Positions 29,018 to 64,000 of a DNA stretch of 64,000 nucleotides are shown one piece after another. A program made the position numbers and the translations under genes. This stretch comes from Prosopocoilus inquinatus. Taxonomy: Eukaryota; Arthropoda; Insecta; Coleoptera; Lucanidae. The first letter of the stretch is position 1. Each line of letters opens with the position of its first letter. The DNA lies in contig CM069870.1 of NCBI GenBank assembly GCA_036172665.1, positions 40,940,001 to 41,004,000 on the forward strand, written 5' to 3'. The notes under the pieces are model-generated. The model saw nothing but the letters and a program-made list of their open reading frames with translations, ran no database searches and had not been told where the DNA came from.

Positions 29018-29423
29018 ACTACATAGCAGATCAATTACCTGCTTTTCTAGAAAAAAGGTGGACGGGTGGTCTGAAACAATCGGCGTATTGAGTTGGTTTA
29101 TCAATGTAAGAAATTTAATTACATTAAAAATTATTTACAAAATTATAAATGTCGCAAATTTAGATTCACATATGATATGATATGTTGTAATATAAAATCT
29201 GCACATTTTTACGGTTAAAATTTATTCATCATCAATTACTTTTGTACGTGTATCAATTATACGGAATACAATGATGCACTTGAGTAGCATGTTTTAATTG
29301 TAGCTATAAATAAATAGATAATTAAATCTTTTAAAGGGTGTAAGTTTCAATAATTAACTGTTATTAGTACTTATTAAAATTAAAAAAAAATGTTGCAAAT
29401 CCTTTTTTATTATAGTTAATCAC

Positions 29424-29515
29424 TCGAGCAGCACCTGTACAGCTGTTTCAGCCCTACCTGGCTTCAATTTGTCAATCCTAACGCAATGTTAGGTCAAAAA
29501 GCGATCGTAGGATGT
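29424..29515. repeat. Rearranged retrozyme fragment with half of a hammerhead ribozyme
   Basis: On the minus strand, about 29454-29424, the ribozyme's second half is legible: GGGCT, GAAA, CAGCTGTA and the distal stem CTCGA. The CUGANGA half is missing. Directly adjacent, in plus orientation, is the retrozyme body (about 29460-29515: CAATTTGTCAATCCTA, GTTAGGTCAAAAAGCGAT, GATGTCGCT). The opposite orientations show that the copy is rearranged, and it cannot self-cleave. Confidence 0.7.
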
Positions 29516-30109
29516 CGCTGTTCAAACTATTCAATAAATAAAATGTTCGAAACAAAAGGTATAATTAAATTAAATATGGTATGACTCATATCGATTGCTC
29601 TAGTAGCGCATTAAAAGTCATAACGTAAAAACTTAAACGAGAATGAAAATATTCTGTCTTGCCTTAAATATTCCACACGTAATTATTATGATTTATCCTA
29701 CTTTACTATATGTATAACGTGTCCCAGCTAATGTCTTTGTTATTTATTGATGAATTCTGCTGAAATTTGATAGGTACCTTTAACAAAAACTAAATATTCA
29801 TTCAGCACCATCAAACATAAATAAAATTAGTAAGAGCATCGAATGTTTTCTTGGCTATTCTTACTAAACAGCGAATATGGATGAAACGATTTTGAGAAGT
29901 TTTACGAGTTGTTCAATTGAAAGCCATTTCTGGTCTACAAAAAATATTAAGAAATATATTCACAAATCATTGATACCACAATTCAGGCATACGGTATACA
30001 CCCCATTGTTTCACTAATCGATGCGATGTATACCCTTATCATTCAATTCTTGTGGCTGCTACTTGAAGAATTCTTTCACAGCCTTCTGTACTTCTACGTC
30101 CGATTCAAG

Positions 30110-30460
30110 ACGTTTAACTTTCAACGCCATATTTTTCGACCATGAAGGACTGTTACTGACAGAGTTTAAAGGGCAAAGAGTGAATATCAATGCAGATCTG
30201 TACAATGCAAATTTGAACAAGCTTCTTCAGCTACAAGGACGAAAACGTCCGGGGAAGGTTTTACATGGCGTCATTTTGATTTACGACAACGCTTGGCCTC
30301 ATGTCACTAAGGTAGTAAAAGAAGAAATGGAAGATTTTAGAGAATCCATTCTGCAGCCCAGATTTATTGCTTTGTGATTTCCATATTTTGGGTTACTGTG
30401 AAAAAAAACGTTAAAAGGTAGGTAAGCGTTTTGAAGCGGACATAAATATACAAACGTAAA
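30110..30460 (+). pseudogene. mariner transposase remnant
   Basis: The frame ending at 30377 reads FFDHEGLLLTEF, INADLYNANLNKL, HGVILIYDNAWPH and ILQPRF. This is the middle of a mariner transposase with the second catalytic Asp (DNAWPH for DNARPH). After a frameshift, LLCDFHI near 30360-30380 supplies the third catalytic Asp region (CDFHLF in the family), then GKRFEADI near 30425. The N-terminal DNA-binding domain and the first Asp are not recognised. It is inactive. Confidence 0.78.
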
Positions 30461-35200: not shown

Positions 35201-38200
35201 TAAGGACAAACGTTATCTGCATGTATCGAGATACAAAATAACGTTCGTCCTTCACATAACGTCTACGTTATAGCGATCGAACGGAATACGTACGCGGGCT
35301 GAATAACAACACAGTGTAGTATGCTGAAAGACTTGTTCAAGATTTTAAAATTGTTAGCCAATGAAATTACTGTAACTGATAAACTGAGAAGTGAAAAAGG
35401 AAAAGATGATGGAAAGTGCGGCATTTGTAAAAAAGGTGGACATGCAAGTGAAAATTGTTTTTTCAAGTCCCAAGAACCAGATAAGCACACTTTTCCAATT
35501 AAAAATAAGAGTGCCAACTAAACAGATTGTTTGTTACACAGTGTAATGAAGTTGGGCACATTTTGACATTCTGCATGAAGAAAGAAGAAAAAAAAACGAA
35601 TCAAGTGCAGCAATGACAGTTCATACTTCGCCAAGATCAAAATTTGAGATCATCAGAATAAAATACTTCAAGTTGACTGCCCTGATTGATGCAGGTACCA
35701 AAAATAATTTGATTAAGCAAACAAGTGTTATGAGAACGGGATTAGTACTCAAAGATGACCAATGCATCTTGATTGGATTAGGTTGTGTAAAAAATTACCT
35801 GTGATGAAACAGTTAGGACCGAAGCGATGATGGATAATGGCTGTTCCGATCTTAAAGCAATCGTTGTCCCGAACAATGCAATGAAAAACGACATAATATT
35901 TAGGACAAGAATTTTTGGATAGCGTAAACTGGAAAGTTGACCAAAATGGAGTACACATCAAGGAAAATGAAACAAATTCTTGGAATAAAAACGTAGAGTG
36001 GATGATAAATATACAGGTAGACCGATCCGAAGTTGAGCTTAATATAAACGATACCACGGATCAGAACATTAAGCAACATAAGCAACAACTTGTTGAAAAC
36101 AGTCAAGTGGGGGAATGCCCAATCAACGAATCTGAAAACCTGGAGTCCTGTGTAAAATTGAAGATTGAGCAGGAGAACCAGAAGTTTGTTCGCTTCTCGC
36201 CAAGACGACTTTCGCGCTATGAAAAACAAGTAGTTGAGGGAATCATCGATGATTGGCTGGAAAAGAACATCATAAGACGGAGCAATTCCGAATACGCAAG
36301 CCCAATGGGTTTGACCAGAAAGAAGAACAATGTGTACAGACTATGTGTGTACTACAGAGAATTTAATAAAATGATAGTTCGCGCTGGATTTCCATTGCCT
36401 ATCATAGACGATTTGTTGAGTGACCTGAGTGAAGTGCGTTATTTTACTGCATTAGACTTGAAGAATTTTTTTTTTTTTCATATAGACATTGATGAGGCTT
36501 CCGTGAAGTATACTTCTTTTGTTGTACCCGGAGGACAACACGAGTTTCTGAAGATGCCCTTTGGATTAACGAATTCGCCTTCAGTGTTCCAGAGAGACAT
36601 GAGCATCATATTTGGTGACTTGTTACGGGAAAAGAAGACATGGACGATCTATTGATTGCAACACATACTCTAGACGGGAACTTGGATATTTTGGAAGAAG
36701 AGAGTACGATTATTAGAGAAAAGAAATTGAAGCTACGGTTGGACAAATGTTGTTTCCTGATGGACAGTATTGAGTATTTGGGATACCTCATCCACGACGG
36801 AGAGATTAGAGCAGGGAAAAATAAGTCAAGAGCAACATAAAATTTCCCGGAACCAAAAAACTTAAGGGAATTGAGGTCTTTATTTAACGAGCTACTTTAA
36901 GTGATTTATATGCTCAAATTGCGAAAACCTTAACGGACCTAACGAAGGGAAACATCATCAAGTTCGACAGCACATCAAAAGCTTCATCCAACCATTTAAA
37001 AGAGTTATATGCTGGGTTAGCGTTGCAAGCTTACAACAGAAACTACAAGATCCAGAAACATACCGATGCGAGTACTGTAGGTTATGGAGCCATACTCCTC
37101 CAGAAGTCAAAGAACTATATCAAGTTTCACCTAGTTTATTTTTACAGCTTAAAAATTACGGATGCTGAAAGCCGTTACGGAAGTTTCGAATTGGAGCTCT
37201 TAGCAGTGATAAAAGTTCTCCACAAATTTAAGGTTTATGTGTTAGAAAAATATTTCGCCTTGGTAACAGACTGTAATTCTATGATGTTGGCTTTAAAGAA
37301 GAAGGAGGTGAAGTCAATATTTGCCGTTGGAGTTTAGCCTTGGAAGTTTGCGATTTCGGGATGATAAATCGAAGCTCTACACACATGCAACATGTGAATG
37401 CTCTGAGCAGGTACTTCGAGGGGAACGTGATTGAAGAGGATAAGGATAATATTATTATGCAAAGGAAAGACCTGGACTTAAGAACATTAAGGCGAAAGCT
37501 GTTGGAAGGTGAAACTGTAAATAGCTATGTCTTGATAAATGGCACTTTGTTCAAGGACTCAGAAGATAGACGAAATATCTTCTAAGTCCTTGAACAAGTG
37601 CCACCAAGACACATGAAGCTATATCTCATGTAGGAGCAGACAAGACTTTAGCTAAATTAAAGGACAAATTCTATTTCAAAAACATATATGTTAGGAGACG
37701 CATTTTAAGTGCATAGGAGCATAATTACAAGAACTTTACAAACGATTCGTTTCTACACTCTGTCGACAAAGGAGACAAAACATGGGATAGGACTCACATC
37801 TTTCATCTAGGACCTTTAACAAAGACAACAAAGGACATAAACATCTGTTTTGTGTTATTGACGGATTTTTCAAATTCATATTTTTAAAACCGACGAAAAC
37901 CACTCAAAGGAATGGCCGGGCTGTAGTCGGTATGGCAGGAAGCGAGTATAAAGAAGAGTAGGGTTGGAAAAATTGACTGTGTGACGCGCATCGAATATGT
38001 ATATATGGTTAAGCGAAGAAAAGAATTGTAATCAGTTTATTAGAATAAATAAAAAGAAAACCCAAGCTAGTTTTTCTGTGTGTGCCTACATTATTACAAA
38101 TTTTCTTAAAAATTTGTTAATGCAGAACACTTCTGCATCCCTTAAAGCCAAATTGGGAAATGTCACTTGAAATTTATCTTGAATGCTATACAGCATGGAT

Positions 38201-40928: not shown

Positions 40929-42004
40929 CTAAAAATAAAAAAGCAAGTTAAAAATGGTTATTTTTGTATTGTTTAATCGAAACGAAGTCAAAATTAGTTT
41001 TTTGTTTTACAGAAAATGCGAAATTGCATTTCTTATAGCCGACTTACACAAGACTAAAAACAGAAATAAAAGAATGTACATTGAAACACCTACCGAGAAA
41101 AGAGTCAGAAAATACATTAATAAAAATTAAAATTAAGGAAAACAAATTGACTGCATTTTATAATAATTCAAATAAAAGTAAACCTAACTGCGTAAGTAAG
41201 TAAGGAATACCGTTCACATACTCGTAAGAAATAAAGATTTGTAGAATTCTCTGTAAATTTAATAATGTTTTTATGAAAAAATAGAAGTTCAAAAGTACTC
41301 ATAGTCTTAACAATATGCACAGCTCTAGAGCAAATATTTTTGAATTCAGATTTCATGTATTGTAGTTTAGGTGAGCTCGGTTCAAAATGAATTTTTTATA
41401 CCTTGTGTTCACAACAAGCTGTTGGGGTTGAGATACGGACGAGCGTAGCGAAGCGAGCTACAATAAGTCTTCAGAGAAATTTGTATAATAATATACTATT
41501 ACGTTACTGTTTACAATTAATTCTAGGTGCATTCTTCTGCTTACAGAAACGTGATCCAAACGCATTCAGTATCAAAGACGAACGTTCTTTTGCAAACGGA
41601 TTAATCCCCGCTCTGCTTGAAATTTCAGTTCAGATTGATAAATCCCTTTTCGAATCAAACTATTTTTATGTTTGGACTGAATTGCAATTATTTGTAGGCG
41701 AACTATCCTATCAATAATTCAAAGCTGAGGTGTTTTGTTGCAGTAACTACAGAATCCAACTTTAAACTAGTCGAAAACAGATTCAAACTTTTAGGCGAAA
41801 GAAAGAACCTTATGTCACTTTGAAGACCTCAAAGACACAAATTCATTATTCGTCAGGCAGGCCTTTTTACAATTAAACAATTATAAATCGTGATAACATT
41901 TCGTTTCCAGAGCTGTGCTTGTACTTAGCGGTTATAAGTAGTACATTTATTACATCGCAATTGCAAATAAATTGGACAAGTCGTTTTTGTTTGCAGTGGG
42001 AATG
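40929..42004. other. Complexin intron upstream of the 40.9-kb exon
   Basis: Unlike the flanking DNA, 41403-41717 has a 104-codon plus-strand frame beginning at a non-ATG codon, but no motif is recognisable. A short GC-richer stretch (GAGCGTAGCGAAGCGAGC near 41440) is palindromic in part. No upstream complexin exon was found. Confidence 0.4.
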
Positions 42005-42069
42005 TCGAGCTACGTCTCTGCTGACGAAGCCCCAAGCAGGGCTGAAACAGCTGTACAGAGGCTGCTCGA
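42005..42069 (+). ncRNA. Hammerhead ribozyme, type I, solitary copy
   Basis: The core is complete: CTGACGA (42021-42027), stem II AGCCC/GGGCT (42028-42032 with 42039-42043), GAAA (42044-42047), a 3-bp palindromic stem III CAGCTG, then the cleavage triplet GTA with predicted scission after 42055. Stem I is CTCTG (42016-42020) with CAGAG (42056-42060), an internal loop, and TCGAG (42005-42009) with CTCGA (42065-42069). CUGANGA and UH are the known requirements, and both are met. Flanking sequence (about 41955-42000 and 42070-42105) matches the retrozyme unit at 51 kb, but the rest of the unit is missing. Confidence 0.85.
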
Positions 42070-42898
42070 GGTTTTCACTGCAATCAAGAACGATTTGCAC
42101 AATTTTTTTTATAATAATACCGATTGTTTTTAAGAGTACAGTTCCAAAAGTACTTGTAAATGCTAGTTCTTATAACCCAAATACAGTACCAGACAACAAA
42201 GTCTAGGCAAGCATGAGACATAACGTGCTCTTGGATATTTAATACTTAACAAAATCACACTTTATTAGTAGAAATTGCCATGCTATTGTCCTCTAGCGTA
42301 GAGGATTTTTTTATATTTTATACCCTATCTAGAAGGTTTATTTTGGGAGCTAGAGAAAAACTTTAAATGCAAAAGTTGTTGGATTTTATGGCTGTTGTCT
42401 TTCAAAGTTATCACAAGAAACAAAAGCGCATCGCAAATTGGAGAAAAAAATACAGCCTTGTATATTGTTTGCTAAGATAAAAGATTATTTTCTCCTGGTT
42501 TTATAAATATATAATATGATGATGTTATGTTGACACTTAAAACATCATTATAATAACATTTACAAAATCAAGAAGATCCCTAAAGGGGCTCACAAAAGTT
42601 CTTTTCCAAAAGTGAATAATAAGGGAGATGTAAGCGCTAAAAAAAGGGATGAAATAATGTTTCTTGGGAATATCTTCTGAATCTTGTGTTATCAAACTAA
42701 TATTTTACACTCCTGCGTTAGGCATATGACTGCGCATTAGTGACAAATTTGTTGTTCGTTCTTTCTAAGGGATAGTTTTGAGGGCTATGAGAGCTTTCAG
42801 TATTTTATCTGTAACTTTTTACTTTTTACATAGTTGATCAAAACTTTGCGACAGAAATATTCTTCAGACTATTTGACACAAAAAAGGTTTTTTTCGTA

Positions 42899-44451: not shown

Positions 44452-45577
44452 TTATTTAATTATTATAATTAAATTAGGTTTCGTTTTTTTGTCAGTTGTG
44501 ATATATCAGGACAAACTGCAGTTTCACCTTCATAACGGTGCTAAGTTATCCTTCTGTGATAATTAGAGTGATTTTTGCAGCTAACTGAAATTTTATTGTT
44601 TTGTTGCTGGAGCGTTGTTGCTAACTTCTCACCGGTAGAATATACTGGCAACAGTATTGCTAGCACACGAGCCTAATATAACGCATTTCAATTGCCATTC
44701 GATAACATTTCTGCGGTGGTTACATTTGGTTGGTTGGTTTAAGCTTTAAGGTATAGTTGCAAAATTATAAAGTGGGACAAGTCTCCTTGCTGACGGCTGT
44801 GTCTCATAATTAATTTACTAATGACAGAAATAACTTGTCAATTTAAGTTCTTAAGTATGTTGAAGAAAATAACAAATAAAAACAAATTTTAGTGTTACTT
44901 TATTCAGTGCTATAAGAAATAATTTTCGTCTATCTACTTTGTAAATCAAAAGTATTGTTCTAAGAGAATTTGTTTTTGTAAAATTAATAAAATATTTAAC
45001 GATGAAAAGTATGGATTCAAGTCTAACATAAAATTTAAACAAAAGAAAATGAAGCCTAAACAAATATGCTATTTTGTACATTTTGAGCTTTGACGTAGCT
45101 GGAAGACATAAATTTTCCACAGACTATATATGAACGCCTGTATTTGATTTAACTCGGATAAACTTGTTTACTATAAGTATTATTTCTTCTCAGCGCTCAG
45201 CTTGTTGATTCGTTCGAGCAATGATTTATGCTTTTATTTCATAAAACATCCTCAACATTTCTTTGTTATTCCGAAATACATTACATGTGTTTGCAGACTA
45301 AAATTTTACAGTCGTGAAAAGTAAATGAACTGCTAAACTCCTGATTTGATAATTTTCTCTAACAATAAGAACAGCATCAACTTAAATATTTAAAAAAATT
45401 TATATATTTAAGCAAAACAACGTCAATTTACACGGAAATAAGTAATTTAGAAAGTGAATTACGTGTATGCACGAATGTCACATAGTATACTGCTATAAAT
45501 AATAGTGAATAAAGCTCGCCGTGAGGTACTACAAATAAAAATCTCGGTAAATTTTTGCGTTGATAAAATTAAACGTA
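44452..45577. other. AT-rich intergenic DNA, nothing recognised
   Basis: Only short open frames and no repeat structure that I can name. Confidence 0.45.
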
Positions 45578-47910
45578 AATCTAGTTACAGGCTAGTAATA
45601 CTTAATGTTAGTTTCAATTTCCCAGAAGGTAAAACCAGTAAGTTTGGCATCATATTTCAAGCAGGTTGATTTTAGTTTGGCCAATTTCCCTTGCAAATTG
45701 AAACAAATACATATTGTTGTGAATCGCGCAAAAGTTTTGGCACAGATAACGGGTGCCAAACTTTAACCGCAAAGCTTACTTCGCGGTTTTAAATTACAAG
45801 GTGTGATAAAAATTTCAAAGTACGGAGACCTTCATAACGAAAGTAATATTCTTCGTACATTTCATAAATTTATTTTTAGCCCGCCGTGTTTTTATATTCT
45901 TTACGCTTTCAAGTTTGTTTGTGCATCATAAAAACTCATGATTTTGCATTTGCATACAAATGTACGGCGTACTGTGAATTATTTATGACTTCTCTGCGAA
46001 GAAGTGAAACTCAAATAAAAAATAAGCTGCAGAAATAAATAAAATAAATATTAAATTGCAATCAAAATTTTTCAGTTTTAAATATCTGCACGTATGGATG
46101 TATGCGTAATAAGTAAATAAAAAATATACAAAATAACGATTTTGTTTCTTGAATAAAATATTGAAAGTTAATACCTGTCTTTCTCTAATTTAAAAGAAGT
46201 AACGTGCTATCTTGAAATAAAATTTAATGCGTGTTTGTTTGTTTATTGTTGCATATTTTTCAAAGTGTACCAGTTTTCAAAGGCTGCAAATGTACAGCAA
46301 GGCTGCTCATACAAAGAGATTTGACAAGAATAAAAAAAAGATAAAAGACAACAATTTGTAGAGATAAAACATTTAAGCGATTCTATTTATCAATCTAATA
46401 AACTCTCCAGTTTTTTTTTGGAATACCTCAGGGTTCCATATTAGATTCGTTGCTTTTTGTTATATTTATAAATGACCTCCCAATCAACATCGACGCCACT
46501 ACTACATACATATATACGGATGACACGAATATTGTGGTCATATATAAATAATATTAAGTTGAAAACTGTCACAAAATTAAAGTTACTGGGCGGAATATTA
46601 GACAGCAATATAATTTGATCCTTCCATTTGAAGCCACAGTTGCCAAAATTAAATAAATTCATCTTTTGTACTTTTAAAATCGCGAAGACTATGTGATATT
46701 ACCACATTACGTCTGGTTTACTTCGCATATTTCAATTAAGCCGTAATATAAGGCTTATTAATTACTTTGGAGAACCAAATCCAATTTAAGTCTACGTTGT
46801 CTACACATTGTTTACGTGTAAAGGAATAACTCTGTCTAGTAGATACACTATTTCTGTTTGCGCTTTCTTAAGGCATCTTTTGACGTAGAATTTAAATATC
46901 CTCTTTTTTATGGAACACCAAGCAGGCTTTAACGTTTTTGAATATATTTTATTTTCCTCTTTAATATGATCTAGCATACCAGATATTTATTTTTACAAAT
47001 AAGAAAATTTAAAAAAAAGTATTTTAAAAAAACAAAAAAAAACTATAGGAAAAATCTGGTTTTCGGTCTTTTCGCAGTTGTTCACGTCGTAATTTACGCA
47101 GTGCAGTGTGGTTTAAGGTCAATCAATACACTTCGTGTTCAGCTAGTGACATTAGTGATTTTTTCTATCTATTCTTGTCGCACAAAAAACTCATCTAGGA
47201 ATAAAAAAAAAACAGAGTCGAGAGTTCGTTATTCAAAGTGACGTTTCACAAATGGCAATTTACTCTACTTGACATAATCTAATACATTTTTGACAAGATA
47301 GTTGGCCGTAAACTACTACCATCGAATTCCGGAAGCCCCTGAAACTGTCACTTTCCTTGTTGTTCTTACTACATTTGTATTTGTTATATTTATTACACAA
47401 TAAACTCATGTTGATTCCAGCACCTTAGTTTGGTCAACATTACGTAGGGCATAATTATGTTTGAACATCTTTTGTAATTAATATTCTACTATCACATTAT
47501 TTTTATTTTATTACTGTTTTTTCTTCTTCTTTTATGTTACTATTAATCTGTTCAATTGAAAGAGCACTTTAAGTTTAACAAATTTTTTTAATTTTCTTGG
47601 ATAAGGTGCATAAAAACAAATCAGGATCACTTTTAGACTGAAAATAAAAAAAAATATTTTTAATTGAATTTTTGAACAGGAGAAGAAGTTAGAACACACT
47701 TTTATTCTCTTGTTTCAATGCACACCATATTGTGTTTGTGAATAAAAAGATCATCGTAATGATACACTTCTTCCTGCTAATTTTAAGACTGAATTATTTA
47801 TGAAATATTCTCTTTTGAGAGATAATATTTTAGAGACATACTTAGTTTGACATCCTGAACGCGATGACATTTAAAAAAACATAATGTTCCATTTAAAAAA
47901 TTTGAAAACA
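45578..47910. repeat. 2333-bp tandem duplication, copy 1
   Basis: The sequence from CTAGTTACAGGCTAG at 45581 onward recurs at a constant offset of 2333 bp, through the middle (46441 to 48774) and to the end (47901 to 50234), so there are no net indels. I saw no substitution in the lines I compared. The unit includes a decayed LINE fragment and a copy of the 26.6-kb repeat family at its right end. Confidence 0.95.
46420..46790 (+). pseudogene. non-LTR retrotransposon (LINE) reverse transcriptase fragment
   Basis: Two frames give the core of a LINE reverse transcriptase: QGSILDSLLFVIFINDLP (about 46430-46485), TYIYTDDTNIVVIY (YTDD for the catalytic YADD, about 46500-46545), then TKLKLLGGILDSNI (about 46565-46610). 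Later weak matches to the C-terminal region extend to about 46800. The orientation is plus. Stops and frameshifts make it inactive. A minus-strand open frame over the same DNA is an artefact. Confidence 0.72.
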
Positions 47911-50243
47911 AATCTAGTTACAGGCTAGTAATACTTAATGTTAGTTTCAATTTCCCAGAAGGTAAAACCAGTAAGTTTGGCATCATATTTCAAGCAGGTT
48001 GATTTTAGTTTGGCCAATTTCCCTTGCAAATTGAAACAAATACATATTGTTGTGAATCGCGCAAAAGTTTTGGCACAGATAACGGGTGCCAAACTTTAAC
48101 CGCAAAGCTTACTTCGCGGTTTTAAATTACAAGGTGTGATAAAAATTTCAAAGTACGGAGACCTTCATAACGAAAGTAATATTCTTCGTACATTTCATAA
48201 ATTTATTTTTAGCCCGCCGTGTTTTTATATTCTTTACGCTTTCAAGTTTGTTTGTGCATCATAAAAACTCATGATTTTGCATTTGCATACAAATGTACGG
48301 CGTACTGTGAATTATTTATGACTTCTCTGCGAAGAAGTGAAACTCAAATAAAAAATAAGCTGCAGAAATAAATAAAATAAATATTAAATTGCAATCAAAA
48401 TTTTTCAGTTTTAAATATCTGCACGTATGGATGTATGCGTAATAAGTAAATAAAAAATATACAAAATAACGATTTTGTTTCTTGAATAAAATATTGAAAG
48501 TTAATACCTGTCTTTCTCTAATTTAAAAGAAGTAACGTGCTATCTTGAAATAAAATTTAATGCGTGTTTGTTTGTTTATTGTTGCATATTTTTCAAAGTG
48601 TACCAGTTTTCAAAGGCTGCAAATGTACAGCAAGGCTGCTCATACAAAGAGATTTGACAAGAATAAAAAAAAGATAAAAGACAACAATTTGTAGAGATAA
48701 AACATTTAAGCGATTCTATTTATCAATCTAATAAACTCTCCAGTTTTTTTTTGGAATACCTCAGGGTTCCATATTAGATTCGTTGCTTTTTGTTATATTT
48801 ATAAATGACCTCCCAATCAACATCGACGCCACTACTACATACATATATACGGATGACACGAATATTGTGGTCATATATAAATAATATTAAGTTGAAAACT
48901 GTCACAAAATTAAAGTTACTGGGCGGAATATTAGACAGCAATATAATTTGATCCTTCCATTTGAAGCCACAGTTGCCAAAATTAAATAAATTCATCTTTT
49001 GTACTTTTAAAATCGCGAAGACTATGTGATATTACCACATTACGTCTGGTTTACTTCGCATATTTCAATTAAGCCGTAATATAAGGCTTATTAATTACTT
49101 TGGAGAACCAAATCCAATTTAAGTCTACGTTGTCTACACATTGTTTACGTGTAAAGGAATAACTCTGTCTAGTAGATACACTATTTCTGTTTGCGCTTTC
49201 TTAAGGCATCTTTTGACGTAGAATTTAAATATCCTCTTTTTTATGGAACACCAAGCAGGCTTTAACGTTTTTGAATATATTTTATTTTCCTCTTTAATAT
49301 GATCTAGCATACCAGATATTTATTTTTACAAATAAGAAAATTTAAAAAAAAGTATTTTAAAAAAACAAAAAAAAACTATAGGAAAAATCTGGTTTTCGGT
49401 CTTTTCGCAGTTGTTCACGTCGTAATTTACGCAGTGCAGTGTGGTTTAAGGTCAATCAATACACTTCGTGTTCAGCTAGTGACATTAGTGATTTTTTCTA
49501 TCTATTCTTGTCGCACAAAAAACTCATCTAGGAATAAAAAAAAAACAGAGTCGAGAGTTCGTTATTCAAAGTGACGTTTCACAAATGGCAATTTACTCTA
49601 CTTGACATAATCTAATACATTTTTGACAAGATAGTTGGCCGTAAACTACTACCATCGAATTCCGGAAGCCCCTGAAACTGTCACTTTCCTTGTTGTTCTT
49701 ACTACATTTGTATTTGTTATATTTATTACACAATAAACTCATGTTGATTCCAGCACCTTAGTTTGGTCAACATTACGTAGGGCATAATTATGTTTGAACA
49801 TCTTTTGTAATTAATATTCTACTATCACATTATTTTTATTTTATTACTGTTTTTTCTTCTTCTTTTATGTTACTATTAATCTGTTCAATTGAAAGAGCAC
49901 TTTAAGTTTAACAAATTTTTTTAATTTTCTTGGATAAGGTGCATAAAAACAAATCAGGATCACTTTTAGACTGAAAATAAAAAAAAATATTTTTAATTGA
50001 ATTTTTGAACAGGAGAAGAAGTTAGAACACACTTTTATTCTCTTGTTTCAATGCACACCATATTGTGTTTGTGAATAAAAAGATCATCGTAATGATACAC
50101 TTCTTCCTGCTAATTTTAAGACTGAATTATTTATGAAATATTCTCTTTTGAGAGATAATATTTTAGAGACATACTTAGTTTGACATCCTGAACGCGATGA
50201 CATTTAAAAAAACATAATGTTCCATTTAAAAAATTTGAAAACA
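47911..50243. repeat. 2333-bp tandem duplication, copy 2
   Basis: Directly abuts copy 1 at 47910/47911; the junction reads GAAAACA then AATCTAG. Beyond 50243 the sequence departs to unique DNA. Confidence 0.95.
48753..49123 (+). pseudogene. LINE reverse transcriptase fragment, duplicated copy
   Basis: Appears identical in sequence to the fragment 2333 bp to the left, as part of the tandem duplication. Confidence 0.72.
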
Positions 50244-50384
50244 ATTGAAAAAAAAAACCTGATAGTCATTTGTGTTTCCGAAGGTACCATAAAATCGAGC
50301 AGGAAAAGTTTTCTAATTTACATAAGTCGCACGGTAAAACTACAAATAAGATAGTTAGATATTGTAGCGTCTTCCACTGAACAG

Positions 50385-50809: not shown

Positions 50810-51105
50810 ACATAAATTTGTTACAAAGTGACAACGCAGCTCAAAACTGCTATATAACCGTTGCGTTGGGTGTCCCTTGTCATGTTGGAATAATTCCAAT
50901 TTGCAGTTTTCACAATATCGAAAGAATCTCAGAAAATGCTGTATTCAGCGATTTTCGCAGAGAAAACCACTGTGGAGTAAAATTCCAAAACTTGGTGAAG
51001 CAGAAGGCGTGCGCAACAAATTCCAACAATTTTTTTATTTTCTCTGTGAAAAAATCGCATTTGCGAATAAATTGGGCAAGTCGTTTTTGGTCTGCAGTGG
51101 GAATG

Positions 51106-51170
51106 TCGAGCTACGTCTCTGCTGAAGAAGCCCCAAGCAGGGCTGAAACAGCTGTCCAGAGGCTGCTCGA
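51106..51170 (+). ncRNA. Hammerhead ribozyme 1 of the array
   Basis: Stem I distal TCGAG/CTCGA (51106-51110 with 51166-51170), internal loop, proximal CTCTG/CAGAG (51117-51121 with 51157-51161). CTGAAGA is at 51122-51128; stem II AGCCC/GGGCT (51129-51133 with 51140-51144); GAAA at 51145-51148; a palindromic 3-bp stem III CAGCTG; triplet GTC with predicted cleavage after 51156. All core positions are canonical (N7 = A). Confidence 0.88.
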
Positions 51171-51416
51171 GGTTTTCACTGCAATCAAGAACGATTTGCA
51201 CAAAATTTTTCTAAAACTTTCATTATGCTTTGACAGCAAGCATGGCCGCCTTGCATGGGGGACTTATTAGGAGCAAATCCCGCTTCAATTTGTCTATCCT
51301 ACTGCAATGTCAGGTCAAAAAGCGATAGTAAGATGTCCCTATTTTATCTGTTCATCATTCTTACATCACAATTGCGAATAAATTGGGCAAGTCGTTTTTG
51401 GTCTGCAGTGGGAATG

Positions 51417-51481
51417 TCGAGCTACGCCTCTGCTGAAGAAGCCCCAAGCAGGGCTGAAACAGCTGTCCAGAGGCTGCTCGA
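51417..51481 (+). ncRNA. Hammerhead ribozyme 2 of the array
   Basis: The same fold as unit 1, with one substitution in the stem I internal loop (TACGCCTCTG). Predicted cleavage is after 51467. All stems and core bases are intact. Confidence 0.88.
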
Positions 51482-51728
51482 GGTTTTCACTGCAATCAAA
51501 AACGATTTGCACAAATTTTTTCTAAAAACTTTCATTATGCTTTGACAGCAAGCATCGCCGCCTTGCATGGGGGACTTATTAGGAGCAAATCCCGCTTCAA
51601 TTTGTCTATCCTACTGCAATGTCAGGTCAAAACGCGATAGTAAGATGTCGCTATTTTATCTGTTCATCATTCTTACATCGCATTTGCGAATAAATTGGGC
51701 AAGTCGTTTTTGGTCTGCAGTGGGAATG

Positions 51729-51793
51729 TCGAGCTACGTCTCTGCTGAAGAAACCCCAAGCAGGGCTGAAACAGCTGTCCAGAGGCTGCTCCA
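51729..51793 (+). ncRNA. Hammerhead ribozyme 3 of the array
   Basis: CTGAAGA, GAAA and GTC are intact, with predicted cleavage after 51779. Stem II is weakened by a G-to-A change (AACCC facing GGGCT), and the distal stem I has one mismatch (CTCCA facing TCGAG), so activity may be lower than in units 1 and 2. Confidence 0.82.
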
Positions 51794-52518
51794 GGTTTTC
51801 ACTGCAATCAAAAACGATTTGCACAAAATTTTTCTAAAAACTTTCATTATGCTTTGACAGCAAGCATGGCCGCCTTGCATGGGGGACTTATTAGGAGCAA
51901 ATCCCGCTTCAATTTGTCTATCCTACTGCAATGTCAGGTCAAAAAGCGATAGTAAGATGTCGCTATTTTATCTGTTCTTTGTTTCCTTCGTTGATTTTTT
52001 TTGACGGAAAAAATAAATTTTTAACTAGTCACTAATCTCATGTACAATTCTTTGAAATTCCTTCACTTCGAATTCTGAAACCAAATTTTCCATCCTTTTA
52101 AGTATTATATCTGTGTAAAATATTGCGCAACTATTAAATTCACCCAATGCAATAAATTCCAAATATCATTCTTAAAATTTATATCATAATTGAAGTTGAA
52201 ATTTATATCATTGAACTATGTAATAATATAGATTAGATAATCTACAATCAGTCAAAGCAGTGCATTTACTGAATTCAAATTGCGGACTTCTGGCAGGTTG
52301 TTCATTGTTAGATATACTTTAGATACAGCTCGTTCTATACCCTACTGTTCTAATATAATAGCTCGGTGTAATTAGATTATATAAACCCCACCTATACCTC
52401 GCACCCCTCCGTCTTTACAACTTGCTGAAATTAATAGCTCTTACAGTAATAAAGTTATAATAATTTAATGAAAATTGCATTGAATTTCTGGAGTGTAATT
52501 AATGAAATAAATTACTTA

Positions 52519-52655
52519 TGCCCGTTTGCACCACTTTCACTTAAAATTTTAAGTCCCACTTAAATTGTTAAGTGACACTTTTTCAATAACAGAAAGTATA
52601 ACTTAGCCACTTAAGTAGGACTTAAAATTTTAAGTGAAAGTGGTGCAAACGGGCA
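52519..52655. mobile_element. Hairpin MITE, 137 bp, TTA target duplications
   Basis: TGCCCGTTTGCACCACTTTC at the left end and its exact complement at the right extend through CACTTAAAATTTTAAGTCC to near-perfect arms of about 39 bp. TTA flanks both sides (52516-52518 and 52656-52658), the Harbinger-type target. The near-perfect arms suggest recent mobility. Confidence 0.88.
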
Positions 52656-55395
52656 TTAAACAGTGAAGTAGAAATAAAACAAATTTCACGTTCTTAGTCA
52701 TACGTAGCTTGATGTCTTCGCAATGTTTTGGGATTTACTTCTAAGAATTACTCAGTATTTTACAACATAGGGATTTAACATAGGAAAAGAGAAACTGATT
52801 TATACGTATTATGTTCCTAGTAAATTCAAACGAATTTGTAGGTTGAAATCGGAAATATTTTGGTATTTTGAAATTAAATTTCTCCACGGCCATTAGTGAA
52901 TGTAATAATTCCGAAATAATTTTTAAGAACTTTTCAGATAGAATGTTCATTCTAAAACACTTGCTTCTTATGTATTTTCATTCCACAGTGATCATCAAAT
53001 GGAAAAAAGCTTTATTTTTTATTTTTTGAAAAAACTTTTTGCGGCAATAATTAAGTCTATTCTGTAAGCATTTCATATCAATTGTTATGCTTGTTACGAT
53101 TGATAAGTAACAAGCATAACAACTGATTTCCTAAAAACCTTCTTCTCTTCAACCGATTGTTACGGCATATTGAAAATTGTTTCAAATTTTGTTTTGCATA
53201 CTACAGTTCAGAACCCAAGAGCAAATTTTATTCCATTGAATATTTTTTATGAATATACATAAATGAATAAGCTAAAGACTCGTTAGAGTTAAATGCCAAA
53301 TGCCCACTGACTCCTTCACATCTTGAACAAAACTGAGAATATCGAAAATCTTTTTTTTTTGTAATATCAGAGAAATTTTGTCCGTTAACCAAGAAACACA
53401 TTTTATAAATATTTATCGAATACTACTAAAATTTTGTCTAATATATCCAACAATTCCAAGTTACATTTTTAAATTTTTTTTGTATCTTAAATAAGTGCTA
53501 CCTTTACTTGAACGTTACTCATCGGCTCTGTCCTGCTTATATTTGGTTATTGCACAAAACTATTTGCGCAAAACGCTTAAAAAGTTTAAGACCGAGATAC
53601 CTTCACATTTTTTGAAGAAAATGCTTTAAGTGTAAGCAAATGCTCCGTTTAATTCATAGAATTAGTCTTATTATAAGTATGAACCTTTTGCTCCAATCGA
53701 AGCAAATGTTTTAATTCAGAGCTCAAAGCAATTATTTCGAAATATTATTCATGTATATTGAAGAATCTTATAGGAAAAGCATTTGCTACATTTTATTCAT
53801 CACATCCAATAACATATTCCTACTGGATGTTAATACAAATAAAGACGTATAAATACGTATTATTGCAATTATAGGCCTATTGTAAGTTTCAATTTAAGTC
53901 AGTAGTCCTATCGCACTTCCTTTTAGTATTCATGGAAGACTGAAATTTTTGTCGAACTCTGCAAAATACAGCCTCATTAAAATAAAAAATTATAACCCCG
54001 TCTCTCTTAAAACTTCATTAATGTTCGTCTTCATTAAACAAGCTGACGCAGATTGATGTTTCATCCCGTATACGACTTAATAAAGTTTAAGGTAAGTTTA
54101 AAGCTAAATTAATACAACATACATTGACGTCAGTGATTACATAAATTATTACTTAAGGCTGTTTGCTCGGCCCCAAAATCGTTTTTCCCATTTCCTGGGC
54201 TTATTTTTCATTAAAATCGTACCAATTTTTCGCGAAAAATTTTTAAATAGATTCTGTTAGGCGGCTAAAGGCTCGTTTTTCGAGAATTGCCAAAAAGGCC
54301 TTAAAAAAAAATTAAAATTAAAAAAATTCGAAAATGTAAGCCTTTAGCCGAAATTTCGCAGTATTCAATAATAATAAACCGTTTAGTTTTTTTTTTTATT
54401 TTTAAAAATAAGGTCAGGAAATGGGAAACAAAATGAAATTTTCGGAATGAAATCGCTGAAATCAAATGTGGTATGTGATACACGCTAGCTCCGCCTTCGG
54501 GCCTAGTGCAAGAGGGGCGAATTCGCACATTCATTCTCCCGATTTAGTGACAGATGAAGAGTATGAGTGAGAGCGAATGCGTTTCAGTGCGTGTATGAGT
54601 GAAACACAGAATACACGCACCATAAACACACAAACGCTACCGAGCGCTGCCAGAAAATAAAGTTCCTATAATTCTAGATTCTAAGTTTTCTCTTTTCAGA
54701 GTCGTGCTTTTTGGTAAATTTTTTTACGGTACATTGAAAGAAACATTTTTGTCATAATAAACTTCTGCAAATCTGGTAGTCATGCACTTAATTAGTTTTA
54801 AAAAGGGGATGTTCAATATTTTGCTCAATATTTTGTTATTTATTTGTGTACACATTTACCTTGACATCATTAAAAATGCCTGTTAATGCATGTAATTAAT
54901 ATTATGTGATAACACAGGAATAAACAATAAGTAAAATGGGTCGGTGATGTAACATTTTGAATATCAAGTTCACCCAAATAGTGAAACGGAACTGCGTCAA
55001 ATAATTTTTGTTTCTACACAACTAATTGAATAAAATATAAATACTTGATGAATACGAGGATTCAGATCTCATCAACTGTAACCTAATCTACAACCACGGT
55101 TTCAAATTTGTAAGTGCATCTGCATTATACGATATTTTTAAACATTCGTCAAGCATCTCAAAAAAAAAAAAATTAAAAGCTTGTTTTTGATCCTGTTAAT
55201 ATTAACGTTCTGGTGATAATAGTGCGGCCATTTTGAATCATATTGTACTACACACTAAAAGAATCTGGAACACGTAATACGTTCTGTTGTAAATACGAGG
55301 AGTTAATTATTGTTGCTATCATGTATTCGTCCGTTTGTTTATATCCGTGTTTTTTAAGTTTCTCTAGAAACAAGTTTAAAATTGCATTCAAACTA

Positions 55396-58317: not shown

Positions 58318-58929
58318 TTAACCAAGTTGGCCATGACAAGTAATATTTGAAAATGGACTGTCAATGAACTCTCGAACCTGCATCTTTTTTAAACATCTCT
58401 CTATCTGTTCAAAGACAGAAGTTACCCATGCTGTTCCTACGTATCCGGGCACACTGTATACTTTGGTATATTTGCCTGGACTTTTCCCGACCATTCTCTT
58501 ATAAATGCGGTGGTAATATTGCTCACTGTAATTATAAGAAACGCTCGCAGAGGGGCATCTCACTTTGTAGCTATTTTTCAAAGAGAAGTTAACTCTTTTT
58601 CCACCAACAAATTTTGAAACAATAGAATTGTACGTCTCCGCTGCATTAATGTTCATATTTAAAAGTAAGCTGTATGCATTATGCGTCAAATGATTACAGC
58701 AAGCAATAATATCATGAAAATCTTTGAACCCGGTGCAAAAATAAACGTCACAGTGAGAATGATCGCTGAATACGTGCTTAGAGCAATTAATAATGTCCTT
58801 TTTTAACGCATTAACTTGCTCTGTGAGCATTTTATCTTCCTTGCGTCGGTACATTAGAGCACTATTAATTCCTATTCCAATAACCTTAAGTACGGTCATA
58901 TTTATTCCAACGTTTAAATCAGGGTTCAA
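58318..58929 (-). pseudogene. Mutator-like transposase C-terminal region
   Basis: A 203-codon minus-strand frame without an ATG start reads LTEQVNALKKDIINCSKHVF, DHSHCDVYFCTGFKD, LLLNMNINAAETYNSIVSKF, GGKRVNFSLKNSY and GKSPGKYTK. This matches the region that precedes YqaJ in insect Mutator-like transposon proteins. After SPGKYTKVY the sequence no longer resembles the family, because the foldback insertion begins nearby. Relative to the neighbouring duplicate, about 14 codons after GFKD are deleted. It is an inactive fragment. Confidence 0.72.
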
Positions 58930-59206
58930 ATCAAACAGGCGATGCGTTTTTTTGTGTCATTGTTTCAATTCTGATAAACTTTCACTTTCCGACAGACGTA
59001 GTTTTATTTCCCGAGTTTTAAATAGTTGCTGTGTTAGATCAGGTCGCCGTTTTTATTTACATCAATTTACATAAAAAATTTTTACTCATCTGAGTGTGCG
59101 CTCGCCCTTAAAAATTTGCAGAAGGCCGCGGGCGGTGCCCATGTGAATGAACCCTTATCCGAATGTTTTCTTGTGGGTGTATCAAACTGATATGTAAACC
59201 ATTCAT
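58501..59206. repeat. Tandem duplicated segment, copy 1 (Mutator-like region plus flank)
   Basis: ATAAATGCGGTGGTAATATTG at the start and TGTCAAAC...GTAAACCA at the end recur about 710-735 bp to the right, at 59207-59940. The duplication includes the Mutator-like fragment, a 5' flank with GCCGCGGGCGGT, and TCACATGG-type sequence. Copies differ by scattered substitutions and indels, so it is older than the 2333-bp duplication. Confidence 0.75.
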
Positions 59207-59940
59207 TCTCTTATAAATGCGGTGGTGATATTGCTCACTGAAATTTTAAGAAAGGCTCGCAGCGTGGCATTTCACTTCGTAGCTATTTTTCAAAGAGAAG
59301 TTAACTCTTTTTCCACCAACAAATTTTGAAACAATTGAAATGTACGTCTCCGCTGCATTAATGTTCATATTTAAAAGTAAACTGTGCATTATGCGTCAAA
59401 TGATTGCAGCAAGCAATAATATCATGAAGTCATCCACACTTCTACTAAGTCTGGAACTGAATTAATTTCATTATCTTTGAACCCGGTGCAAAAATAAACG
59501 TCATAATCAGAATGTTCGCCGAATACGTGCTTAGAGCAATTAATAATGTCCTTTTTTAACGCATGAACTTGCTCTGTGAGTGTTTTTTCTTTCTTGCATC
59601 GGTACATTAGAGCAGTATTAATTCCTATTCCAATAATCTTAAGGCACAGTCATTAATATTTATTCCAACGTTTAAATCAGGGTTCAGTTTTTAAGGCACT
59701 TTTAATGTTTTCATTTGACTTTCACTTTCGGACAGACGTAGTTTTATTTCCCGAGTTTTATATAGTTTCTGTGTTAGATCAGGTCGCCGTTTTTATTTAC
59801 ATCACTTTTACATAAAAAAATTTACTCATCTGAGTGTGCGCTCGACCTTAGAATTTGCAGGAGGCCGCGGGCGGTAACCATGTGAATGAGGCCTTATCGG
59901 AATATTCTCTTGTGGGTGTGTCAAACTGACACGTAAACCA
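59207..59940. repeat. Tandem duplicated segment, copy 2
   Basis: The minus-strand frame at 59607-59422 reads LTEQVHALKKDIINCSKHVF, CDVYFC-like and FKDNEINSVPDLVEVW. The last part keeps codons missing from copy 1, so copy 2 is closer to the ancestral transposon here, although a frameshift and several stops follow. Confidence 0.72.
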
Positions 59941-60139
59941 ATCAAAAATAAAGATCAGTGACAGCAGAGTCATAAATTACAAGGAAAATGTTTAGGTGGT
60001 AATTCTGTTCTCTGTTCTTTTCGTTTGTGTGTAAAAATGCAGGAACACATGTTGAACGTATGTTTCTTCTAAATATATGCGAAAAATAGTGATACGCCCA
60101 TTTGAAATCGAGTTCAGCTGTAAGCGAGCATACAGCCTT

Positions 60140-60310
60140 AACTTAAAAAGTTTTCTGAACATATAATATAGCGACATCTTACTATCGCTTTTTGACCTAA
60201 CATTGCAGTAGGATAGACAAATTGAAGCGGGATTTGCTCCTAATGAGTCCCCCATGCAAGGAGGCGGCCATGCTTGCTGTCAAAGCATAATGAAAGATTT
60301 TTTTTTTTTT
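60140..60310 (-). repeat. Retrozyme body fragment without ribozyme
   Basis: On the minus strand the order CATTATGCTTTGACAGCAAG, CTTGCATGGGGGACTCATTA, CAAATCCCGCTTCAATTTGT, GCAATGTTAGGTCAAAAAGC and GATGTCGCTAT matches the body of the 51-kb units. It ends in a T-rich tract at the ribozyme-proximal side (about 60298-60315), and the hammerhead is absent. Confidence 0.8.
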
Positions 60311-60319
60311 TTTCTAAAA

Positions 60320-60939
60320 AGTTTTCATTAAAACTTCTCTCGTTTAACGTCTAATTTTCTAAACTGGAAACGTAATTAAGTTGAAGATTTTTTTATCAAT
60401 TTTATGGAGTATCCGCTCAACTATAATTACACAGCTATTTGTAGTAATAAATCTGGTTAAAAAAACTGAATTTAAATTGAAATACGTTTTGTGTGTTTCT
60501 AACCGCATCGTTAGCAAAAGTTATAAATAATTTCCGATCACGGTCGAGGCACATTCCTTTCTCGCTGCAGGCCCTGGCGATTTCCCTCAAAGGGAGTCAA
60601 CCTGACTCCGTTAGGGAGTCGCTATAAATTAACGGACTCCCTACTAGAGTCAATTTGACCCCGATTAAGATGCCGGATGGTCCATCTTTGTTCTCGTCTT
60701 CCTTCTGAAGGCTCGATGAGACATACTGGGAATAACAATTCTTGAACGCTAGGAGTATTGCTTATTAGTTATTACTGCATATGCAAATAAAACACTTTTA
60801 AAGAAAACAATAAAATTGTATTTTAAAATGTATTAGGTTGTTCGGAAAAAATGTCGTTATCTTAACTTAGAATGCTTGTATTACACGGAATATATTAATT
60901 TTGATTAAACTATATTATTGCTATATTCTTTAGTGTCCT
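60320..60939. other. Unassigned intergenic DNA
   Basis: A GC-richer patch at 60540-60690 contains repeated GGGAGTC/GACTCC words (AGGGAGTCAACCTGACTCC, TTAGGGAGTCGC, GGACTCCCTA) that could pair. I cannot identify it. Confidence 0.4.
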
Positions 60940-62362: not shown

Positions 62363-63223
62363 CTATAGTCTTCTATAGTCTATAGAAGTATTTGTAAAAT
62401 ATGTATAAAATTTCAGCGGAGAAATACAAAAGAAACACTTCAACCTTCTTAAAAACGTTTCGTCTCGAAATGTTCCTTGTGATAGTCTTGAAGGAGGGTG
62501 TCGGAATCTACATGCTGGCCCATTCTTGCAACTTCCCGTCTGGAAGAAGTAGCAGTCCACGGTTTTGCTGTTGCTGACTATTGCCTGTGGGTGGTTGCTG
62601 CAGACTAGGACTTCAATTCCCGTTCTGTGGAAGATGACTTCCAGCATGCTTCGAATTACTCTCCAGTCTAGTGCGTCCAATCCGCAGCCCAATTTGGGGA
62701 TGGCTAACTTCATCTGGTGGTTCTCTATTAGCTGTCTCCTCAGGCTATATAGGGCTCTTCACATACTTTGATAGTCAGGTTTACCGCTTGATGTCTTCTT
62801 AGTGACTAAATAATGCACGTGGCGCCTCCGATCTGCCGTCGAATCGATGATCTGCAGATACTTGCCTACCACGGGATGCTGTCTTCGGAGCTCCTCGATT
62901 TGGCCAAATTTCTTCCTAAACACCTGAGCAATTCCTTTGGACATTTTCAGGTCTTCTGCTACGCAGTGGGCCAGACTGTACTCCAGTGGCACTTTAAAGA
63001 GATCTTGTTGCTTCTCCGTGGTCACTCCAAACCGTGCCTTACTTCCTTCAGCGTGATGAGACATGAAGGTTTCGAAGTTCACTTCGGAAACTTGCGCCCT
63101 TTTTACTGTCCCTTCATCTGCTTCTCCATGGTAAGGGCCTATCCGGTTGAAGTGGATTACTTTAGGTTTGCCATGGGGGACCTTCTTGATGCGGTAAACG
63201 ACGTCGTTGATCCGTTTCATCAC
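62363..63223 (-). pseudogene. TARG1-like macro domain and CCCH zinc finger downstream of gypsy integrase
   Basis: The frame at 63223-62759 begins with the GPY/F-like end of a gypsy integrase (YKVMKRINDVVYRIKKV), a spacer, and then a macro domain. The domain reads LAHCVAEDLKMSKGIAQVF, KKFG and VHYLVTKKTSSGKPDY, then a TGA at 62761-62759. The next frame (62713-62363; readable from about 62755) completes it: SLRRQLIENHQMKLAIPKL, GCGLDALDW and TGIEVLVC. This is the order in TARG1/OARD1, which removes ADP-ribose from proteins; its catalytic Lys (in TKK) and Asp (in GCGLD) both appear conserved. After a short linker comes CYFFQTGSCKNGPACRFRH, a perfect C-X7-C-X5-C-X3-H zinc finger. The TGA sits where CGA (Arg) would fit. 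Continuity of frame from integrase into macro domain indicates that both belong to the retroelement's pol gene. Confidence 0.85.
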
Positions 63224-64000
63224 TTTGTAAGGGAGGTCTGCAGTTTTGGGGACAGGCCTCGACGTCTTTGGGGGTTATAAAGCCAGACCAGTGCTCCAGG
63301 TTGGTATCCCCCGTTTTGAGCGTTGATGTCATAGTGCTCCTTCATTCGATCGCTGGCCGTCTGTATATTGTGACGCACTTGGTTGTGGATGTCGTCCATT
63401 TTCCTGCGTAATTTGCTCACGTAATCTTCGTCGGCAGAGACTTCGCCAGGCTTCACACCAAACTTCAGGTCGCAGGGCAGTCTCGGCTCTCGCCCGAATA
63501 CCGCTTTCGCGGGAGTCTCCCCTGTTGTCTCATGAACAGACGAGCGGTATGCCATTAGAAACAGGGGAATGTACGTGTCCCAGTCCCTCTGATGATCGGA
63601 AACGACCTTGGACAAATGTCGGTTGATGGTTCTGTTGAACCTTTCCACCATTCCGTCCGACTGTGGGTGGAGTGCAGTTGTTTTAGTTTTTCGTACGCCG
63701 AGCAGAGTACACATGTTCTTGCACAAGGCTGATTCAAAGTTCCTTCCTTGGTCTAAATGCAGTTCCATAGGTGCACCATACCGACTGATCCATTCCCTGA
63801 CAAGGACTTCCGCAATAGTGACTGCCTCTTGGTTAGGTAGGGCGTAAGCTTCAACCCACTTACTAAAGTAGTCCATTACCACGACGATGTACTTGTTTCC
63901 ACCATTCGTTTCTGGAAACGGGCCGGCTACATCGATGGCAACTCTCTCAAAAGGACTTCCAACGTTGTACTGTCTCATGGGGGCATTGCCCCGCCTGTGG
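63220..64000 (-). pseudogene. Ty3/gypsy integrase core, continues beyond the right edge
   Basis: The minus-strand frame is open from the edge to a TGA at 63222-63220. It reads FERVAIDVAGPFPETNGGNK (first catalytic Asp), YFSKWVEAY, LHLDQGRNFES (second Asp), GVRKTKTTALHPQSDGMVER (catalytic Glu in MVERFNR) and PLFLMAYRSSVHETTGETP. The D-D-E triad is complete. The frame is lost at the WEGPYKV junction, where about 8 nt appear deleted (LQTSLTK stop instead of LQ-x-WEGPY). Reading resumes in the next frame as YKVMKRIND and continues into the macro domain. Apart from that shift and one stop, this is a well-preserved, recent element. Confidence 0.92.

Follow-up and report, generated by a model that had tools for sequence, protein, structure and literature searches.

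The window, by which we mean the whole 64-kb stretch of DNA analysed here, contains a short tandem array in which every unit carries the core of a type I hammerhead ribozyme. Tandem Repeats Finder describes the array as having a period of 312, 3.0 copies and 97% matches. Phases within the repeat are numbered on unit 2 as the reference, and two of them, X and Y, mark the positions at which the outer ends of copies elsewhere in the genome lie. The features of the array are as follows.

51054..51977, + strand: retrozyme array of three head-to-tail units (Tandem Repeats Finder, unit mapping)
51054..51364, + strand: unit 1, 311 nt; hammerhead match 51116-51162, expected cleavage after 51156
51365..51676, + strand: unit 2, 312 nt; hammerhead match 51427-51473, expected cleavage after 51467
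51677..51977, + strand: unit 3, 301 nt, ending at site X; hammerhead match 51739-51785, expected cleavage after 51779
51376..51522, + strand: long rod (extended stem I) in unit 2 with the hammerhead at its tip, predicted fold
51519..51529, + strand: site Y region of unit 2 (phase 155-165), outer arm end in 25/25 scored genome insertions
51658..51673, + strand: site X region of unit 2 (phase 294-309), the other arm's outer end in 25/25 scored genome insertions

The first-pass annotation had described three units of about 312 nt with cleavage sites 311 and 312 nt apart, and both points agree with the layout above, in which the GUC triplets end at 51156, 51467 and 51779. CUGAAGA, stem II, GAAA and GUC were found in each of the three units. 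The array and its cores therefore stand as described, and two details of pairing require correction. First, the complementarity claimed for all paired strands holds for units 1 and 2, and is broken in unit 3 by an A.C pair in stem II and a C.C pair in distal stem I. Second, stem III, given as 3 bp, is in the monomer a 2-bp stem (A-U, C-G) with an AGCU tetraloop. Since the three units differ in sequence, assembly cannot have produced the array as an exact duplication. Border analysis showed it to be one-armed and without a clear target duplication. Exact relatives of the array numbered zero in both viral_contigs and genome_contigs, neither of which is expected to include insects. We also considered a coding role for the unit and found it unsupported: one frame is open for 103 codons, but meets one stop per turn. 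The hammerhead also lies within a 43-codon stretch that begins with ATG (unit 50-178, e.g., 51414-51542) and bears no sign of coding, in that four of six changes among copies that were read by eye alter the amino acid.

Several other features lie in the neighbourhood. A 2335-bp direct tandem (45577-47911 and 47910-50244, 100% identity) ends 810 bp before the array and may be a genuine duplication of very recent date or an artefact of assembly. A long, MITE-like palindrome with 64-nt arms occupies 52518-52656, where plant miRNA models match below threshold. At 58492-59944, two tandem copies, 86-94% identical, surround an open reading frame with a weak DUF725 match below the cut-off, and a mir-929 precursor (60590-60663, minus strand, 88.3 bits), of a family whose distribution suggests an insect, is separated by about 290 bp from the retrozyme fragment at 60 kb described below. 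Two relics lie on the plus strand, one of a retroelement with RVT_1 and RNase H (35897-37337) and one of a mariner-type transposase (30018-30374). On the minus strand, 62363-63274 encodes an Integrase p58 C-terminal domain and, after it, a CCCH zinc finger, and is therefore read as the tail of a retrotransposon. The stretch between these two domains is reminiscent of a TARG1-like macrodomain; Pfam listed no macrodomain there at E values up to 0.01, and a literature search returned no relevant report. No tRNA gene was found in the 64-kb window, and a 549-aa open reading frame had no homologue in a search that scored 7998 candidates.

How well is the hammerhead itself supported? In narrow slices, the Rfam model Hammerhead_1 (RF00163; gathering score 34) matched unit 1 with 25.8 bits (E 9.8e-5), unit 2 with 29.7 bits (E 4.9e-6) and unit 3 with 23.3 bits (E 8.6e-4), all below gathering. 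A 1201-base scan returned RF02275 (Hammerhead_HH9) only, for unit 2 (20.2 bits, E 0.046) and unit 1 (16.6 bits, E 0.71), and scans of the whole window listed no ribozyme, either at gathering thresholds or at E values up to 10. The covariance-model check suggested by the first-pass annotation yields matches below gathering for all three units in narrow slices and for none at the scale of the window; the units share with RF00163 and RF02275 the core and the three-helix layout, with scores below the gathering cut-offs. The bare gapped core motif, with three matches in the window against 0.80 expected, is weak evidence when taken alone. A descriptor composed once the motif had been seen, in which stems I, II and III must all form, matched the window three times (42021, 51122 and 51433), against five matches in 300 whole-window shuffles; unit 3 fails it because of the stem II mismatch. 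The match at 42021 represents a fourth hammerhead that, like two further unit fragments in the window, was absent from the first-pass annotation. RF00163 scored this copy (42015-42061) at 20.3 bits in a 101-base slice, below gathering, and a 301-base slice over it did not list the hammerhead.

The predicted fold of the unit includes a long rod of 144 nt with the ribozyme at its tip (-76.7 kcal/mol, z -9.5). For the unit-2/3 circle, the predicted energy is -103.9 kcal/mol, whereas 100 shuffles average -72.9 (sd 5.1); the predicted folds of the two monomers have 62-63% of their bases paired. The lowest-energy fold of the single ribozyme is an inactive one, in which the core GCUG pairs with CAGC of stem III; it is better than the fold with the core held open by 4.9, 4.9 and 4.0 kcal/mol in units 1, 2 and 3, respectively, and the 2-bp stem III of the monomer is predicted to cost a further 1.1 kcal/mol. 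When two strands of units 1 and 2 were folded without constraint, the lowest-energy structure was a double hammerhead, in which stem III is predicted to extend to 8 bp formed by the 8-nt palindrome ACAGCUGU; in the two-strand fold of unit 3, stem II is incomplete. The dimeric folding predicted in the first-pass annotation thus gains in silico support in units 1 and 2. Because hairpins are generally able to dimerise, this result backs the idea of a dimer without proving it.

Outside the array, the window holds three further copies of parts of the unit.

41954..42111, + strand: hammerhead half (unit 1-159, about 94% identical), core CUGACGA, site GUA; dispersed copy
60154..60301, - strand: other half (unit 160-304, about 93%); dispersed copy
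60315..60326, - strand: GAAAACTTTTTA, one of the two 12-bp repeats that border the 60-kb copy
60144..60155, - strand: GAAAACTTTTTA, the second of these 12-bp repeats, on the opposite side
29381..29533, both orientations: older two-armed copy, an antisense piece (unit 160 to 77) fused to a sense piece (227 to 302)

The 42-kb copy may start about 13 nt earlier than 41954, and a clean flanking repeat was not found around it. A 12-bp repeat without mismatches lies on either side of the 60-kb copy; repeats of at least 12 bp arose in about 0.04% of 5000 random placements. This copy also contains an A16 run, which we read as a short, slipped arm that started at Y, given that the complement of Y (CTTTTTAGAAAAAA) can be recognised there. 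We had considered that the two halves might be separate elements, and dropped this idea since the copies in the genome identify X and Y as the starts of arms.

Copy number across the 650-Mb genome (649,647,856 bases, 173 contigs), which the first-pass annotation had proposed to count, came to 824 candidate places for the unit query. The best 40 of these were scored and gave 146 matches of 94-100% identity, which merged into 36 loci including the window. The other 35 were taken with about 3 kb on each side, and two were dropped as repeats of others (L031 of L030, L042 of L040), leaving 33 loci and the window slice; all of them come from the top of one identity-ranked list (the best 40 of 824 places). 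The copies are dispersed over many contigs. Segment mapping of the 33 loci and the window slice resolved 46 copy clusters, of which 28 are inverted head-to-head pairs and 18 have a single orientation. Wherever adjacent segments differ in orientation, the antisense arm precedes the sense arm (28 cases), and the reverse order was never seen (0 cases).

These inverted pairs have three properties in common. First, 25 of the 28 are flanked by a direct repeat of 9-18 bp (12 bp in twelve pairs, 13 in five, 14 in three, 15 in two, and 9, 10 and 18 in one each), the exceptions being L015, one cluster of L022 and L032; the chance rate of a repeat of at least 9 bp is 3.1%, as estimated with somewhat narrower flanks. 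Single-orientation clusters bear such a repeat in 4 of 18 cases, in one of which it is element sequence. Second, in all 25 repeat-flanked pairs, one outer end falls at X (294-309) and the other at Y (155-165), with X on the left in 13 and Y on the left in 12. Were the two sites used independently and equally often, a set of 25 mixed pairs would arise by chance about 3 times in 100 million. This figure has to be read with caution, as the loci on which the rule is counted are those on which it was first noticed. L026 and L033, whose target sequences are similar, may not represent independent cases. Third, the inner ends are free. The phases at which the two arms meet are unrelated, differing by 0-155 nt (n=28). 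At the junctions, overlaps of 1-5 bp occur in 16 pairs and of 9-21 bp in six, the arms of one pair abut, and those of five are separated by 19-176 nt. The lengths of the two arms are uncorrelated (r 0.08), 40 of the 56 arms are longer than one unit, and the longest measures 5.9 units; a locus of single orientation reaches 7.0. Starts that are fixed, stops that are free and arms of several turns are the pattern expected from priming by both target strands on a circular template.

Which enzyme might produce such a pattern? Penelope-like elements (PLEs) of the same genome were examined through a search for GIY-YIG (PF01541), which yielded 2232 candidate places, 150 of which were scored, most with equal score. 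Among neighbours within 10 kb in these 150 of 2232 places, 47 were (-+), none (+-), none (++) and one (--). One PLE locus retains an intact frame of 785 aa with RVT_1 (5.1e-15) and GIY-YIG (9.4e-7). We then compared the borders of 15 PLE loci of one family; since these had been picked for being (-+) pairs, only the end rule and the flanking repeats count as tests. In the first five loci, the two outer ends lay at different sites, here called 1 and 2, with site 2 located 37-39 nt beyond site 1; the rule holds in 15/15 loci, ten of which were fetched after it had been seen in the five. All 15 loci are flanked by repeats of 11-16 bp. X and Y show no sequence resemblance to the PLE start sites (p 0.30 to 0.64), and no sequence common to PLE and retrozyme through which the template might be recognised was found at these sites. 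The end of one PLE locus (L044, 1329-1390) contains CUGAAGA, a hairpin, GAAA and the palindrome AUACGUAU, and so resembles the minimal hammerheads reported in PLEs; its predicted fold does not include a hammerhead.

Many of the sampled retrozyme copies thus bear a scar of the kind left by the PLE, which points to copying of the retrozyme by an element of this type. We consider it quite probable that the array belongs to a non-autonomous animal retrozyme inserted by a PLE protein, with a ring RNA as the template, and we lean towards the wider view that Penelope-like enzymes use the rings of animal retrozymes as two-site templates, with both cut target strands priming, one per fixed site. In such a process, cleavage by the type I hammerheads, for which dimers are probably the best form, would release RNA of about 312 nt from transcripts of tandem units, and this RNA would be closed into a ring. 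The two strands of the target would be cut, at positions about 12 nt apart, by a PLE protein of the same genome. Their free 3′ ends would then serve as primers for reverse transcription of the ring, one starting at X and the other at Y, both sites presumably being used in one event. Each arm would copy round the ring over a variable distance, the arms would join at unrelated phases, often via a few matching bases, and repair would duplicate the target. Several observations count against this reading, namely the 18 of 46 clusters with a single orientation, the three of 28 pairs without a repeat, the one-armed array in the window itself, the dissimilarity of X and Y to the PLE start sites, the Rfam scores below gathering and a hammerhead no less variable than the rest of the unit; in addition, the accessible text of PMC3846280 reports that two PLE types of a rotifer show no evidence of mobilising each other.

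Mobilisation by a PLE might also proceed without two-strand priming on a ring, from a linear multimeric template or by self-priming on the antisense strand, which we regard as unlikely. Tandem loci could give multimeric transcripts, and linear multimers would also yield arms of several turns; self-priming has been inferred from palindromes at inverted junctions of rotifer PLEs, according to the accessible text of PMC3846280. Self-priming should, however, leave similar phases on both sides of a junction, whereas those of the 28 pairs differ by as much as stated above, and a purified PLE protein both cuts and extends both strands in vitro, starting at two adjacent internal sites (PMC11167929).

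Mobilisation by a LINE, with the inverted arms produced by L1-type twin priming, appears improbable. Flanking repeats and inversions occur with LINEs too, and the genome offers 14144 RVT_1 candidates. On the other hand, twin priming has to contend with two fixed outer sites, each used once in 25/25 pairs, and no A-tail was seen at the X and Y outer ends of the sampled insertions. Moreover, the best 150 of the 14144 RVT_1 candidates gave one (-+) and one (++) pair, an imperfect contrast with the PLEs because the reverse transcriptase lies farther from the copied end. Still less probable is an ordinary satellite spread by unequal crossing-over, with the hammerhead as an incidental feature or a relic. 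The array in the window is indeed a plain tandem, its third unit is damaged, and purifying selection on the ribozyme was not seen, the hammerhead being no less variable than the rest (mean variability 0.010 for the core, 0.019 for the hammerhead, 0.019 for the rest of half A and 0.013 for half B; rank tests not significant). Against a satellite stand the spread of copies over many contigs, their fixed ends and flanking repeats, and a catalytic core that 147 of 153 genome units have kept intact. Integration of a viroid-like or HDV-like RNA agent, suggested by the small rod-like RNA with a ribozyme, is scarcely credible given that the minus strand of the array has no CTGANGA core and no Rfam ribozyme match in the slices scanned, that no reading frame is supported and that hundreds of candidate genomic places exist.

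The reading as a retrozyme agrees with what has been described in other animals. In the available text of Cervera and de la Pena (2020; PMC7229834), non-LTR retrozymes, known from coral, mussel and axolotl with repeats of 170-400 nt, are defined as tandem repeats of about 150-450 bp with type I hammerheads, present as dimers to large multimers, with a GC content below 45-50% and target duplications that, when present, exceed 4 bp; Nematostella repeats have 15-bp duplications in the part of PMC4918200 consulted. The size of our unit, its GC content (0.44, within the animal range), hammerhead, multimers, self-pairing and dispersed copies with duplications uphold the first-pass reading of a retrozyme array, and the 2-bp stem III with its tetraloop is a further likeness. 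Animal retrozymes also have contacts between the loops of helices I and II, loops whose letters are visible for our units in the Rfam alignments. Three differences are apparent from the same portions of these sources: animal retrozymes are described as head-to-tail tandems, whereas most of the copies sampled here are inverted, with two fixed outer sites; most metazoan rings are predicted to have the core free (PMC7229834), whereas the lowest-energy fold here mispairs it; and self-pairing of 62-63% contrasts with values above 70% in the examples of PMC4918200.

Two other insect repeats invite comparison, as far as the accessible portions of their descriptions extend. The hammerheads of Aedes aegypti repeats also have a palindromic stem III (PMC3088659) that, as here, could pair fully in a dimer; compared by description, the insertion structure seen here has no described counterpart there. 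For the pDo500 satellite of the Dolichopoda cave cricket, likewise a tandem repeat with a hammerhead, a double form has been proposed (PMC2837043), which keeps stem III within one strand, whereas here stem III would join two strands. With PLE insertions, the copies share head-to-head inverted arms, short target duplications, a tail at one inverted end, two internal start sites and, as proposed here, extension of both strands; in the text available of PMC3846280, such insertions have inverted pLTRs, duplications of 8-10 bp and a tail on one inverted pLTR. Unlike a PLE, the retrozyme has no protein of its own, and its sites lie about 140-170 nt apart on a 312-nt ring, as opposed to 37-39 nt in the PLE of this genome.

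PLEs have been considered a strong candidate for the mobilisation of animal retrozymes (PMC7229834, in the part available). A search of titles and abstract beginnings, with subscription literature mostly outside its reach, found no study of the structure of retrozyme insertions, and PMC7229834 was the only report found that combines retrozymes, Penelope-like elements and target-primed insertion. The two-armed, two-site fingerprint argues for PLEs as the movers in this genome, and can be searched for in any genome that bears retrozymes. The result therefore bears on which reverse transcriptase moves animal retrozymes and on whether the RNA ring is the template. If the proposed model is true, a genomic fingerprint would tie a retrozyme to the enzyme that moves it, and the inverted rolling-circle arms would be explained. 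The use of one start site per target strand, in the retrozyme and the PLE alike, also provides a clue to the mechanism of the Penelope-like enzyme.
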